A stretch of 55,454 nt of DNA, from assembly GCA_031272145.1 (NCBI GenBank), contig JAISUL010000080.1, positions 1 through 55,454 on the forward strand, in the 5' to 3' direction. Under the pieces are notes generated by a model. It was given only the letters and a program-made list of their open reading frames with translations, was not told the DNA's origin and did no database searches. The position numbers and the translations under genes are program-made. Source of the stretch: Synergistaceae bacterium (GTDB taxonomy: Bacteria; Synergistota; Synergistia; Synergistales; Aminobacteriaceae). The stretch's first letter is position 1. Each line of letters starts with the position of its first letter. Shown here piece after piece: positions 314-52,285 of the stretch.

Positions 314-1413
314 TTATGGCCGTAGGTGCCTGTACAAATCCAGGGTCTCCGAGGCGCAGCGGTCCCACGAGAAGAGGCGGCAGCGCCGCCGGCCCGCCTC
401 CACTAGGGCGGAGCGAAGCTGTGCGTCAGTCGCGGCGCGGAGCATCTTGTCGGCTATGTCGTCTGTCGAAGCCGGGTCGAACAGCAAAGCTGCGTCCCCC
501 GCCACCTCCGGTATGGAGCTAGCGTTTGACGCGACGACCGGACAGCCGCGGCTCATGGCCTCAAGGATCGGAAGCCCGAAGCCCTCCCACAGCGACGGGT
601 AGACGAAGGCCGCAGCGTTTTCGTACAGGCCGGACAGAACGCCGTCGCCGCCCTCGAAGCGCGGCGGAGGACGCGAAGGCCTCGGCCATGCGCCCGAAGT
701 TCTTGTACGCGAACCGCGGCCCCACGAACAGGAAATACGGCCGAGCGGGGCGGCAGGCCGGAGCCGTCTTCGCGTCCTCGGAAGCTCCGCTGAAGCCGTG
801 ATAGATGACCCTGACCACGCAGTCGGGACGGACGGGATACATATCGAGCAGGTCTCTTTTCGTTGCCTCCGAGACGCATATGAGGGCGTCGGCCATCTCG
901 AAGGCGCGGCGTTTTTGCGCGGGGGTGTCGTCGCCTCGGAACAGCTCCGGGAACCTCTCGTGCGTAAAGTCGTGGACGGTGAACACCTTCTTGGCCTTCG
1001 GGAGGCCGTGAACGTCGTAATAGGTGGGATGATAGAGGCAGCCCGCGCCGCCGCACGGGGCGAAACGAGCCGCAAACAGCCGCCACACGGCGTCGTTGGC
1101 AGCGCGCCTCAGCACCCCAGTGCGCGGTATGATGGGCACGGGAACCCCCCATACACGGGCAGCCGAGTTTTTCAGCGCGCGGTTCAGCCCGTAGCGGTTG
1201 AGGAACAGCCCCATGAAGACGCGGACGTCAAAGTCGGGAGGCGGGCAAACCGCTACGCGGCTGATCAGCTCCGTGAAATAACGGGAAATGCCGCCGTAAG
1301 GCTGCTGAAAAACGGTGTGGTCATAGACAATAGTGTGGCGACCGGCGACCGGCGACCGGCGACCGGCGACCCATTTTACTCAAAATCGTTTTCAGCGCAT
1401 CCGTAAAAACCAC
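314..1413 (-). pseudogene. GT4-family glycosyltransferase, interrupted at both ends
   Basis: The two halves of a GT-B, family 4 glycosyltransferase lie in different frames. The N-terminal half (frame ending near 670) has the family opening IVYDHTVFQQPYGGISRYF, then [14 protein letters not shown] and the [14 protein letters not shown] segment. The C-terminal half carries [19 protein letters not shown] and [11 protein letters not shown], the donor-sugar site, and ends with TAA at 314-316. Between them, around 640-690, the frame shifts and about 40-45 codons normally found here (the GGG...E and rv...G strand region) are missing. At the 5' end no usable start codon is in frame. GTG 1413 (site GGAGGA at 1421-1426, 7-nt gap) and ATG 1374 share a frame that is off by one from the enzyme because of a heptamer repeat. 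It follows pgm by 33 nt. A surface-sugar role is inferred. A sequencing error could explain the shift but not the missing segment. Confidence 0.75.
1337..1371 (-). repeat. Heptanucleotide tandem repeat (GGTCGCC)x5 at the GT4 start
   Basis: On the minus strand ATG (1374-1372) is followed directly by five perfect GGTCGCC units and then the glycosyltransferase reading frame. The unit is 7 nt, so each gain or loss shifts the frame. With five units the frame runs into TGA after about 17 codons. With one, four or seven units ATG joins the IVYDH... frame; with one unit the protein would begin MGRHTIVYD, like normal family members. Confidence 0.85.
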
Positions 1414-19598: not shown

Positions 19599-19712
19599 AT
19601 GGTTTTGCCCCTTGCTTTTCCCCCAGCCCTTTGTATAATGGGCACGGCACGGCACGGCACGGCACGGCACGGCACGGCACGGCACGGCCGTTCTTTTGCG
19701 CCCATAGCCTAG
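19599..19712 (+). CDS. Possible leader ORF containing the pentamer repeat
   Basis: ATG 19599 has AAAGGAG ten bases upstream and opens a 37-codon frame (MVLPLAFPPALCIMG, then ARHGT-type repeats) that stops at TAG 19710-19712. The (GGCAC)9 run lies inside it. With eight units the same frame would instead end at TGA 19739-19741, overlapping the ATG of the FkbM gene in an ATGA junction that favours coupled translation. No homology is recognised, and the ORF could be chance. Confidence 0.3.
   Translation: MVLPLAFPPALCIMGTARHGTARHGTARHGRSFAPIA
19612..19639 (+). promoter_or_regulatory. Promoter candidate ahead of FkbM gene
   Basis: TTGCTT (19612-19617) and a perfect TATAAT (19634-19639) are 16 bases apart. 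Transcription would start near 19646, within the pentamer repeat, so repeat number would change the 5' leader of the FkbM methyltransferase mRNA. This promoter would bypass the start of the leader ORF. Confidence 0.55.
19641..19685 (+). repeat. Pentanucleotide tandem repeat (GGCAC)x9
   Basis: Nine perfect GGCAC units directly follow a TATAAT box, 52 bases before the FkbM methyltransferase start. The unit length is not a multiple of three, and such runs change length by slipped-strand mispairing. Confidence 0.95.
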
Positions 19713-22757: not shown

Positions 22758-23669
22758 CTAATAGTTAGATGTGGATGTAGATGCGGATAGTATACCGTAC
22801 CTCTTCCACCGATCATGCAGCCAAAACCAAAGCTCCGGCTGCGGCGCGAACATGTGCTCAAGCGCGCCGTTTATCCTCCGAGTCATGAGCTCGATGGCCT
22901 CGTCCCTGCTGCCGGCCCTCTCCGCGAAGAGCGGCGGGAAGAACTCCACGGCGTGCCGGAACGGCCCCAGCCTGTATATTGTCAGCGGCACGACCGGCGC
23001 CCCCGACAGCATGGCCAGGGCCGCAGGGCCGAGCGTGTTGGTGCAGGGGCAGCCCATGAACGGCAGAGTCCTCCCCCCCATCCACGACACGTCGGGCATG
23101 GTCGCCGCGTGCTCGCCCGCCCTCAGCAGCTTCGCTATGGAGTGGATCTTGGTGTCCATCGGCACGAGGCCTATCCCTGCCCTGCGCCTGTACGAGGCTA
23201 TGACCGCGGCCACGTCCTTGTTGTTCGTGTCGCGGTAGACCACGTTGAGCTTCTTCCCCGCGCCGGCGCCGCGCTGCCTCAGGAAGTCCGCCAGCCAGGC
23301 CGCGAGGAGCTCCCAGTTGCCGTAGTGCCCCCCGACGAACAGCAACCCCCTGCCCTCGCCGATGTACGGCAGGGCGAACTCAAGCCCGCGCACCTCCTCG
23401 ACCCATGTCAGGGCCTCGGCCATGTCCCGCTGCATGGTCAGCACCTCCGTGACCATCCAGCCGAGGTGGTCGTAGGTGCGGCGGCGCGTCTCCAGGCGCT
23501 CGGCAGGCGACGACTCTGGGTAGACCATGGCCAGGTTGGACAGCACCCTTGCCCCGCGAGGCCGGAAGACCTTGAGGACGGTGCGGCAAAAAAGGGACAG
23601 AAGGTTCGCCCTCCATCCCCTCTTAGCAAAAGCGCGGAAGCCCTCTATGGCGAGCGCTGCGGATTTCAC
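22758..23669 (-). CDS. Lipid A biosynthesis acyltransferase (LpxL/HtrB family)
   Basis: Inner-membrane-associated acyltransferase adding a secondary acyl chain to the lipid A precursor. The active-site HX4E motif is GGHYGNWELLAAW. It is followed by VVYRDTNNKD, ATMPDVSWMGG (compare DQ/D...G of the family) and PVVPLTIYRL, then WFWLHDRWKR, typical of the family's C-terminus. It has 303 residues. It indicates an outer membrane with lipid A. The gene lies 12 bases after the phase-variable methyltransferase in the same direction. Confidence 0.92.
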   Translation of the reverse strand: MKSAALAIEGFRAFAKRGWRANLLSLFCRTVLKVFRPRGARVLSNLAMVYPESSPAERLETRRRTYDHLGWMVTEVLTMQRDMAEALTWVEEVRGLEFALPYIGEGRGLLFVGGHYGNWELLAAWLADFLRQRGAGAGKKLNVVYRDTNNKDVAAVIASYRRRAGIGLVPMDTKIHSIAKLLRAGEHAATMPDVSWMGGRTLPFMGCPCTNTLGPAALAMLSGAPVVPLTIYRLGPFRHAVEFFPPLFAERAGSRDEAIELMTRRINGALEHMFAPQPELWFWLHDRWKRYGILSASTSTSNY

Positions 23670-23681
23670 TTAATCCCTTCT

Positions 23682-24645
23682 TTACATCTCCAACGTGTGA
23701 TACCTGTTGATCCGAGTCCGGATCAACATTGCCTCCAGCATAAACAGCTCGTTGTCGAACCGCGCCGGATTCCCGCACTTCCGCTTGCCAAAGGTCGTGA
23801 AGCAGTCCAGGGCGTCGGAGTTTTCCCAGTTGACCTTCTCCTGAACCCAGACGAAGCCGCCGCACTGCTCGATGCACTCGGCGGCTAGCTCCGCCGTGAC
23901 GTCCCGCCCGCGCCAGCCTGGCACGTTTCCGGCTCCGGCGAAGTGCTCCCCGGCGTTCGAGTGGTGGATGAACGCGACACCGCCGTCCTTCAGGACGCGC
24001 AGTACCTCCGAGAGGTAGCTTTTCAAGATGTCAAGCCCGACGTGCACAAGCGAGTCGAACGAAAACACGAAGTCGCATGAGCCGGACTCTATCATGGGCA
24101 AAGACATGCCGTCGCCTATGAAAAACTCGGCGTTCTTCGCCGCCGCGAAGCGCTTCCGGCAAAACTCGACGCAGTTGGGCGCGAGGTCGACGCCTCGATA
24201 GCGCCCGGACGCCTGAATAAGGAACTCCGACCAGCGCCCGTGCCCAGGAGCAATCTCCAGAACAGACCCGGCGGGCAGCCAATCCGCGATCCGAGGGTGA
24301 AGGCACCCGTACCACTGCGCCACCCTGCTGCCCCAATCAATGCTCCACTCATCGCCGTCCTCCGGCCAAGAGTACTCGTTCCAAGCACCGTAGTTCCGCT
24401 CCACGGTGTTGTCGGCAGGATGCTTACGAAACCGCGACAACGCACGGGACGCGAGCGAGCGCAGCAGCCTATACCAACGCCGCGGACTGAGCAGCGCCCT
24501 TACGGGCGACAGCAGGGAAGGCCGTATGAACAACGCCCATGCAAGGGCTAGAATTTTCTCGCGTTTACGCTCCTTTTCTTCTGCTAGGCTTTGCTCTACC
24601 CCCCCCCCCCGTGTGGACAACCTGTGGACAACTCTGTTCTTTCAT
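23682..24645 (-). CDS. SAM methyltransferase with poly-G tract, OFF as read
   Basis: Class I methyltransferase: SAM motif VLEIAPGHGRW, acidic loop GVDLAPNCVEF, motif IV/post-I SCDFVFSFDSLVHV, then VLRVLKDGGVAFIHHSN. About 70 residues precede the domain. The best start is ATG 24645 with AAAGGAG eight bases upstream, giving MKEQSCPQVVHT and then a run of twelve G. With 12 G this frame ends at TAA after 26 codons. With 11 or 14 G it enters the methyltransferase frame. A TTG at 24620 is already in that frame but has no good ribosome site. It sits in the tyrS-lpxL-fba run, so a surface-lipid or glycan target is inferred. Confidence 0.82.
24599..24610 (-). repeat. Homopolymer run of 12 G (minus strand) in the methyltransferase 5' end
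   Basis: Twelve C on the plus strand, 12 G in the coding sense, 35 bases after ATG 24645. This is the typical size of slippage-prone G runs in Campylobacter and Neisseria phase-variable genes. It is also where base-calling errors are most likely. Confidence 0.9.
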
Positions 24646-24666
24646 AACGAACACTCCTTTCTTGAG

Positions 24667-25530
24667 CTACTTCTTCTTATTACCCTTCCCGTCCGCATAC
24701 AGCACGGAGCGGTAAAGCGACTCCAGGGCCCGGACGGAGCGTTCGGTGCCGTGGGTATCGGCTAGGTGGCGTCTGGCGGCGGCGGCGGCCATTCGGCCGG
24801 GGGGGCCTTGGGCGTTGTCCAGGGTCTCCTTCCAATCGCCGCGCGGAACTAGGAAGCCTCCCTCGCCCAGCGTGGCGTTCAGCGCCACCTCGGCCCTCGG
24901 CTGGGCTACCACCGGCACGCCCCTGACTGCCATGTAGGCGGCCAGAAGCGCGTTCGTCGCGGCGTCGTCGACGAACAGCAGGCTCGCCTTGGCCAGGGCA
25001 TCCCTTGTCCTCGCGGCTGACAGAGGTACGGCCACCAGCTCCGACTTGCTTATGGCCTCGCGCAGCGCCCGGTCCGGCTTGGCGGCGAGGATAAGAGTCG
25101 GGAACGCCTCCCTCTCGTGCGCAGGCTCGTCCCAGACGGCGCGGGCGTCGAACACCGGGGGTATGACGTTCTCCCCGTGCCGGGCGTGCCATGACTGGAG
25201 GCGCGTCGGCTGGCCGCTCCAGTCAGGGTCGGCGTCCAAGGACGTGTGGACGGTCTGGGCTCGAAGCCTCACCAGCGGCCACCAGGACGGCGCCTCGCCC
25301 CAGAGGTGCCACAGGCGCCCCTTGAACGTCACCAGCCTCGCCCGCTCCGCGATGGTCATCGACTGCCACGAGCGCACAAGGCCGCCCGACGGAAAGAACG
25401 CCGTCCCGCCCTCGACGTAGACCTCGGGGTGAAACGCCGCGCTGCCCTCCGACAGAGCCCCGGCCAGCGCCCCGACCACCGCCGCCTCCCAAGGCCTGTC
25501 GAAACCCGAAACGTACCAAACGCAGTCCAT
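24667..25530 (-). CDS. Glycosyltransferase-like protein (GT-B C-terminal features)
   Basis: A protein of 287 residues without a clear family signature. The second half looks like the donor-binding half of a GT-B glycosyltransferase: LLFVDDAATNALLAAYMAVRGVPVVAQP, then GFLVPRGDWKETLDNA and a closing helix ARRHLADTHGTERSVRALESLY. The first half has a VHTSLDADPDWSG region. ATG 25530 lies ten bases after the tyrS stop. It is upstream of the phase-variable methyltransferase and lpxL-like genes, which supports a surface-sugar function. I would not assign a sugar. Confidence 0.6.
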   Translation of the reverse strand: MDCVWYVSGFDRPWEAAVVGALAGALSEGSAAFHPEVYVEGGTAFFPSGGLVRSWQSMTIAERARLVTFKGRLWHLWGEAPSWWPLVRLRAQTVHTSLDADPDWSGQPTRLQSWHARHGENVIPPVFDARAVWDEPAHEREAFPTLILAAKPDRALREAISKSELVAVPLSAARTRDALAKASLLFVDDAATNALLAAYMAVRGVPVVAQPRAEVALNATLGEGGFLVPRGDWKETLDNAQGPPGRMAAAAARRHLADTHGTERSVRALESLYRSVLYADGKGNKKK

Positions 25531-25539
25531 GGACGCGGC

Positions 25540-26826
25540 TTAGGATGCTATCTGGAGCAAATGGAACTTCTTCTTGCCGAGCCGGACGAAGAGGTACTGG
25601 CCGCGCAGGAGCCGGTCTTTGCTCAGGGCCTCGGCCTCGTCCGCTACGCGGGCATCGTTTATCGACACTCCTCCCTGCCTTATAGCCCGCCGGGCCTCGC
25701 CCTTGCTCTCGCAGACGCCGCCCGCGGCCAGGACGTCCACGACCTGCGCCGGAAGCGGAATATTGAGCGTCGAAAAGGGCATCTCGTCCTTGAGCAAGGA
25801 CAGGGTCTCCTCCGAGAGGTCGGCCGGCGCGGTCTCGCCGAAGAGGGCGTCGCTCGCCGCGACGACGTTTCGCGCCGCCTCCTCCCCGTGCACTATCGCG
25901 GTGACCTCGCGGGCCAGACGGCGCTGTGCCGTCCTGGCGCTCATGTCCTTGGCGTGGGCCGCCATTACCTCCCCGATCTCGCCCAGGGAGAGGAACGTGA
26001 ACAGCTTCATCAGGCGCTCGACGTCGGCGTCCTCGGAGTTTATCCAGAACTGGTAGAACTTGTAGGGGCTCGTGCGCCTCGGATCAAGCCATACCGCTCC
26101 GCTCTCGGTCTTGCCGAACTTGGAGCCGCTCGACGTGAGCAGCAGGGGCTGGGTCAGGCCGAAGACCTCGCCCCCGGTCGTCTTGCGGACGTACTCGACG
26201 CCGGCCGCAAGGTTGCCCTGCTGGTCGTTGCCCCCCATCTGGAGGCGGCAGCCGTAGGTCTCGTAGAGGTGCCGGAAGTCCATCGACTGAAGGAGCACGT
26301 AGGAAAACTCCGTGTATGAAATGCTCTTGTCCGGGTCGTCGAGGCGGCTCTTGACGTACTCCCGAGCGATCATGGAGTTGACCGTGAAGTGCTTCCCCAC
26401 GTCGCGCAGCACGTCTATGAACGAGAACGTGGAGAGCCAGTCGTAGTTGTTGACCATCAGGGCGGAGTTCGCGCCGCAGTCGAAGTCGAGGAAGCGCGCC
26501 AGCTGCGGCTTGACCCCCTCCATGTTCTTCCGGGCGTCCTCGATGGTGAGCAGGTTGCGCTCCTTGCTCTTGCCGGAGGGGTCGCCGATCAGCCCAGTCC
26601 CTCCGCCCGCGACCGGCACGGGACGGTGCCCGCAGCGCTGAATCCAGGCTAGGGCCATTATCGGGATGAGGTGCCCGACGTGAAGGCTGTCGGCGGTCGG
26701 GTCGAAGCCGATGTAGACGGTCATCATCTCGCTCTTCATAACTTCCTGAAGGCGGTCGGGAGCGCTGCACCACTCGACCATCCCGCGTTCCCTCAGGGTC
26801 TCGTAAGCGTTTTCGGGCACGTGCAT
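25540..26826 (-). CDS. tyrS: Tyrosyl-tRNA synthetase
   Basis: Charges tRNA-Tyr. It has 428 residues, with the HIGH-type motif in YIGFDPTADSLHVGHLIP, the tyrosine pocket QSMDFRHLYETYGCRLQMGGNDQ (split across the strand and helix), the KMSKS equivalent KFGKTESGA, and a C-terminal S4-type RNA-binding domain (RRAIRQGGVSIND). GGAGGG is six bases before ATG 26826. It heads the minus-strand run toward fba and lies just downstream of rnpB. Confidence 0.96.
   Translation of the reverse strand: MHVPENAYETLRERGMVEWCSAPDRLQEVMKSEMMTVYIGFDPTADSLHVGHLIPIMALAWIQRCGHRPVPVAGGGTGLIGDPSGKSKERNLLTIEDARKNMEGVKPQLARFLDFDCGANSALMVNNYDWLSTFSFIDVLRDVGKHFTVNSMIAREYVKSRLDDPDKSISYTEFSYVLLQSMDFRHLYETYGCRLQMGGNDQQGNLAAGVEYVRKTTGGEVFGLTQPLLLTSSGSKFGKTESGAVWLDPRRTSPYKFYQFWINSEDADVERLMKLFTFLSLGEIGEVMAAHAKDMSARTAQRRLAREVTAIVHGEEAARNVVAASDALFGETAPADLSEETLSLLKDEMPFSTLNIPLPAQVVDVLAAGGVCESKGEARRAIRQGGVSINDARVADEAEALSKDRLLRGQYLFVRLGKKKFHLLQIAS

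Positions 26827-50714: not shown

Positions 50715-52285
<1,571 letters not shown>

Follow-up and report, generated by a model that had tools for sequence, protein, structure and literature searches.

Gene content and reading frames of the methyltransferase locus

The window (the whole 55,454-nt stretch of DNA analysed) carries on its minus strand a block in which tyrS is followed by a glycosyltransferase (GT)-like gene, a frame for a SAM methyltransferase headed by a run of G and an LpxL-like acyltransferase gene. The following features were identified, listed in the direction of transcription:

25540..26826, minus strand: tyrS, first gene of the conserved block (TIGR00234, 3.5e-112; synteny)
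24667..25530, minus strand: GT-like gene, upstream, beside tyrS across the family (73/83 family genomes; synteny; weak GT-B fold match)
24649..24661, minus strand: ribosome-binding site region (AAGAAAGGAG) of ATG 24645 (sequence and duplex calculation)
24643..24645, minus strand: ATG start of the leader frame (MKEQSCPQVVHT...; SD duplex -8.8 kcal/mol)
24565..24645, minus strand: dead-end frame at 12 G, 26 codons plus stop (translation, frame table)
24618..24620, minus strand: alternative TTG start, in the enzyme frame at 12 G, lacking a ribosome site (frame table, duplex calculation)
24599..24610, minus strand: G12 homopolymer tract, the proposed switch (read directly; no 12-run in 200 shuffles)
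23682..24598, minus strand: class I SAM methyltransferase frame after the tract, 304 codons (PF13649 2.4e-16, PF08241 5.8e-15, alignment, fold search)
22758..23669, minus strand: LpxL-like acyltransferase, downstream (PF03279, 1.4e-32)

A sequence-only reading of this DNA had described a run of 12 G in a methyltransferase gene, preceded by an ATG with a strong ribosome site, and had claimed that 12 G leads to a 26-codon dead end while 11 or 14 G joins the ATG to a complete enzyme; our analysis agrees on each of these points. The tract comprises exactly 12 G. Reading on the minus strand from ATG 24645, the codons are ATG AAA GAA CAG AGT TGT CCA CAG GTT GTC CAC ACG, with MKEQSCPQVVHT lying between the ATG and the G run and the last base of the ACG codon forming the first G of the run. 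The upstream gene ends at 24667, which puts ATG 24645 21 bases past its stop, as in a normal operon, and the anti-SD duplex of this start (-8.8 kcal/mol) is matched by 3.5 % of random positions. At 12 G, the ATG 24645 frame meets a stop after 26 codons; frame arithmetic predicts that the ATG and enzyme frames are joined whenever the number of G is 2 modulo 3 (11 or 14). On the frame table and ribosome-site strength, the tract is positioned between the translation start and the functional domain, where changes of one unit shift the frame.

The outcome would differ if TTG 24620 were the true start, as the gene would then be ON at 12 G and the ATG frame irrelevant. This codon does share the enzyme frame at 12 G, and other TTG starts occur in the window; however, it lacks a ribosome site (anti-SD duplex -2.4 kcal/mol, reached by 54 % of random positions, versus -8.8 kcal/mol for the ATG), and a change in tract length would still switch the gene, with the phases reversed. 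We therefore regard a TTG start as very improbable indeed and take ATG 24645 as the probable start of the leader. Moving downstream in the enzyme frame, no start with a fair ribosome site is met until a GTG at residue 100, within the conserved region. Starts are present in all three frames ahead of the tract, so weak starts could give low expression in the OFF phase.

Two copies of a DnaA-box-like sequence, TTGTCCACA, lie directly upstream of the G tract (24612-24620 and 24623-24631, minus strand). There are no further copies in the window, and the placement beside the tract is probably a coincidence.

The methyltransferase and its insertion into a conserved block

The sequence-only reading had also held that the frame after the tract encodes a complete SAM methyltransferase and that its neighbours are a glycosyltransferase-like and an LpxL-like gene. 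All 304 codons are open, and the product matches Methyltransf_25 (PF13649) and Methyltransf_11 (PF08241) with a score of 60.7 bits against a curated cut-off of 27. The conserved core begins at about residue 68 (numbering of the ORF from the TTG), and the SAM-binding EI-PGHGRW region is conserved in the alignment with homologues. The structure models, of modest confidence with pLDDT values of 63 and 60, lend weak support. A DNA methyltransferase or phasevarion (Mod) function was ruled out, as searches of Pfam and NCBIfam returned no DNA methyltransferase or target recognition domain. We infer that the enzyme acts on an envelope sugar or lipid as its putative substrate.

Regarding the neighbours, the LpxL assignment is carried by PF03279; the protein at 24667-25530 has no Pfam match, and a low-confidence model of it resembles GT-B glycosyltransferases (BshA, PimA, WaaG). 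All of the relatives examined (11/11) have tyrS, the GT-like gene and lpxL side by side, with the GT-like gene directly preceding and usually overlapping lpxL (TGATTG or TGAATG). A methyltransferase gene between the latter two was found in one genome only. The GT-like gene and lpxL being adjacent in all of these relatives and separated here, the methyltransferase gene is a lineage-specific insertion.

The gene itself is rare, being present in 3/83 family genomes, with neither of the others from the same genus. Its nearest homologues (G008 and G024; 57-64 % identity) are located elsewhere, have a different N-terminal part and carry no tract, more distant homologues start near the conserved core, and a scan of the genome contigs returned distant homologues only. 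It could be argued that such a gene is a decaying pseudogene in which the G run is incidental, given that its insertion at the tyrS-GT-like-lpxL block is confined to one genome and that codon usage is weak in the N-terminal part (residues 30-60 after the tract). However, the frame is open throughout, codon usage in the core is normal, homologues share the conserved motif residues and no break other than the G run is present, making decay extremely improbable.

Repeat arrays in the window

The G12 tract exceeds both chance expectation and the usual G/C tract cut-off of 7 or more (PMC6321876). By length, the window has 90 G/C runs of 5, 14 of 6 and 4 of 7, the last being the next longest after the single run of 12, and none of 200 dinucleotide shuffles of the window yielded a G/C run of 12 (longest 11, reached 7 times).

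Three further arrays were returned by Tandem Repeats Finder: (GGCGACC)5 at 1337-1371, (GGCAC)9.6 at 19641-19688 and (CT)28 at 50990-51045. In 30 shuffles of the window, no array of period 9 or less reached that score. The (GGCGACC)5 array is situated in the 5′ end of a GT4 gene (314-1331, minus strand), after an SD-like site and a GTG whose frame differs from that of the GT4 gene, which reads out of frame. The GT4 gene also shows a second frame change near 659, where there is no homopolymer and which looks like an internal deletion. The perfect (GGCAC)9.6 array (plus strand) separates a TATAAT-like box from the start codon (ATG 19738) of a gene for an FkbM-family methyltransferase and is a candidate for a second phase-variable locus. 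The third array, (AG)28 when read on the minus strand, falls within a DUF4422 gene, the C-terminal part of which resumes in another frame after the repeat. Together with the poly-G tract, these arrays bring the number of candidate repeat loci in the 55 kb to at least four, every one of them at a glycosyltransferase-type or methyltransferase gene.

G/C tracts elsewhere in the genome

In the genome surveyed, a 2.05-Mb draft assembly of 107 contigs, 20 G/C runs reach a length of at least 9; three of these are 12 long and two 13. Among the first 100 matches listed (contigs C1-C37), there were 48 runs of 7, 7 of 8, 3 of 9, 3 of 10, 1 of 11 and 2 of 12, i.e. a steep fall to length 8 followed by a flat stretch, which simple decay does not give. 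The tracts assigned to genes or ORFs were as follows:

C79: GT2 glycosyltransferase, G13, in frame
C80: DegT/DnrJ/EryC1 aminotransferase, G13, frame broken
C16 (L049), contig positions 7923-7934 and 9002-9013: a pair of neighbouring radical-SAM paralogues, poly-C12 in the coding strand of each, frame broken in both
C31: SAM methyltransferase, G10, frame broken
C63: methyltransferase-like (judged by sequence features alone), G9, frame broken
C39: radical SAM, G9, frame broken
C83 (L048): S8 subtilase, G10 near the N-terminus, frame broken
C37 (L051): G11/C11 run, immediately ahead of a short hydrophobic ORF and its ribosome site

The two radical-SAM paralogues on C16 have their tracts at the same position near the 3′ end. 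A 12-base motif, GAGTTGTCCACA, found upstream of the window tract and of both C16 tracts was rejected as a shared element, since chance accounts for it given how many flank pairs were compared. The run on C37 is possibly a promoter or 5′-leader switch. On C39, a (GA)19.5 repeat stands at the start of a glycosyltransferase-like frame (L056, 490-528), a few hundred bases upstream of the radical-SAM gene with the G9 frame break.

Counting the window gene, 8/9 of the coding tracts judged in the genome read OFF; if one third were ON by chance, the probability of one or fewer ON is about 0.14. This pattern also fits errors in tract length, and the same question arises for the window gene, in which the true count could be 11 G (or another in-frame number) and the gene simply ON, with 12 arising from homopolymer miscalling or the draft consensus. 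The draft state of the assembly and the preponderance of OFF tracts point in that direction. However, the rest of the window reads in frame save for the one GT4 gene and the repeat loci, and a tract of 11 G would still be long enough for instability, as in C. jejuni tracts vary from a length of 8 upwards (PMC6321876). We therefore consider a length error unlikely and retain 12 G, with the gene probably OFF as sequenced.

Loss of mismatch repair was ruled out as the cause of the long tracts, as MutS and MutL genes are present in the genome. With both present, switching may be less frequent than in bacteria that lack mismatch repair.

Tracts in related genomes

Across 101 genomes, each representing one species, G10 match counts vary widely, being highest in a sister genus of the same family (g16), whereas most of the order's other families have low counts; runs at contig ends inflate some of these numbers. 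The survey yielded no second genome of the window's own genus. Among sister genomes, G12 runs were found in frame in three genes, L155 (G024:C46; a signal-peptide-like start, resembling subtilases), L156 (with a leader of roughly 40 residues before the tract) and L157, showing that such a tract can be translated through; a methyltransferase-like gene (L148) carries G12 out of frame. Subtilase-type genes with poly-G near the N-terminus thus occur in two genera (C83 and L155), with the tract at different positions.

A transporter gene of genus g16 (L174-L203), APC-type in our reading of its sequence, provides a comparison at a fixed site. Its products are 67-100 % identical between species and its G tract occupies one 3′-terminal site with 9, 10, 11, 12 or 16 G, several species having no tract. 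Within one family, the site has therefore been kept while the length has changed from species to species, a result that concerns the transporter and not the window gene. The transporter tract is often followed by a possible start of the next frame. It may switch the C-terminus of the transporter or its coupling to a downstream gene.

These differences also bear on the idea that RNA polymerase or ribosome slippage on the G run gives a constant low level of enzyme with no on/off state. That homopolymer runs act as slippery sites is generally known (see the discussion in PMC3711429); however, tract length differs between species at a related site, as a DNA-level change predicts. Slippage as the sole explanation is in our view very unlikely, and we favour switching through change in the DNA.

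Proposed model of phase variation

The sequence-only reading had interpreted the locus as a contingency gene that is OFF as sequenced. This interpretation is supported by the much greater strength of the ATG relative to the TTG, the excess of long G/C tracts across the genome that interrupt the frame of surface-type genes, the other window repeats at glycan genes and the variation in tract length at a fixed site in relatives. The locus is probably, though by no means certainly, a translational contingency (phase-variable) locus and one of a genome-wide set of repeat-controlled surface genes.

In the proposed model, the methyltransferase gene was inserted into the conserved tyrS-GT-like-lpxL block, and slipped-strand mispairing during replication would add or remove G. 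With a G number of 2 modulo 3, translation would run through a short glycine stretch into the methyltransferase (ON), while in other phases it would stop after a short peptide (OFF, the state as sequenced). The OFF phase may also reduce expression of the downstream lpxL by polarity. An envelope sugar or lipid would be methylated by the enzyme, such that subpopulations would differ in surface chemistry.

A broader reading, to which we give even chances, is that this Synergistota family has genome-wide phase variation based on mixed simple repeats (poly-G, AG, 5-mer and 7-mer) in surface-glycan genes despite its mismatch-repair genes, with switch genes, this methyltransferase among them, having entered conserved envelope operons and the tract perhaps also determining lpxL expression by polarity. 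The many repeats in surface-sugar genes suggest that this bacterial group varies its surface by random switching.

Comparison with known systems

Most of what is known about repeat-driven phase variation comes from host-adapted pathogens. According to a 2025 review, this association may reflect database bias, and surveying a wider range of phylogenies would help to explain why phase variation evolves (PMC11868660). We found no report of repeat-driven phase variation in Synergistota in the open-access literature, and the locus is a sound candidate, from its sequence, for a contingency locus of known kind in a group for which we found no earlier description. A Synergistota phasome, if true, would add a little-studied phylum to the known range of phase variation and provide testable loci for phage or host pressure on surface glycans.

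The locus resembles phasevarion Mod genes (PMC5149525) in that a methyltransferase is possibly under repeat-tract control. Unlike Mod, it encodes a small-molecule enzyme of the Methyltransf_25/11 type without a DNA-methyltransferase match, and control of gene expression by DNA methylation is therefore not expected. As in the homopolymeric-tract genes of Helicobacter and Neisseria (PMC2823697, PMC5084427), a 5′ tract would alter the frame and hence expression or the C-terminal sequence; in contrast to the present candidate, those genes have experimental or deep-sequencing support.

SAM methyltransferases, radical-SAM genes and surface proteins with poly-G belong to the Campylobacter phasome, examples being SAM-dependent methyltransferases and radical-SAM enzymes in the core phasome of C. 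fetus and genes of the capsule region in C. jejuni (PMC6321876, PMC8743553). The present locus, a predicted switch, differs from these in its phylum (Synergistota), in the presence of MutS and MutL and in the insertion into the tyrS-GT-lpxL block. It is like them in having poly-G within the coding frame of a SAM methyltransferase, in tract lengths of 7-13 and in involving the same classes of surface-modifying genes.
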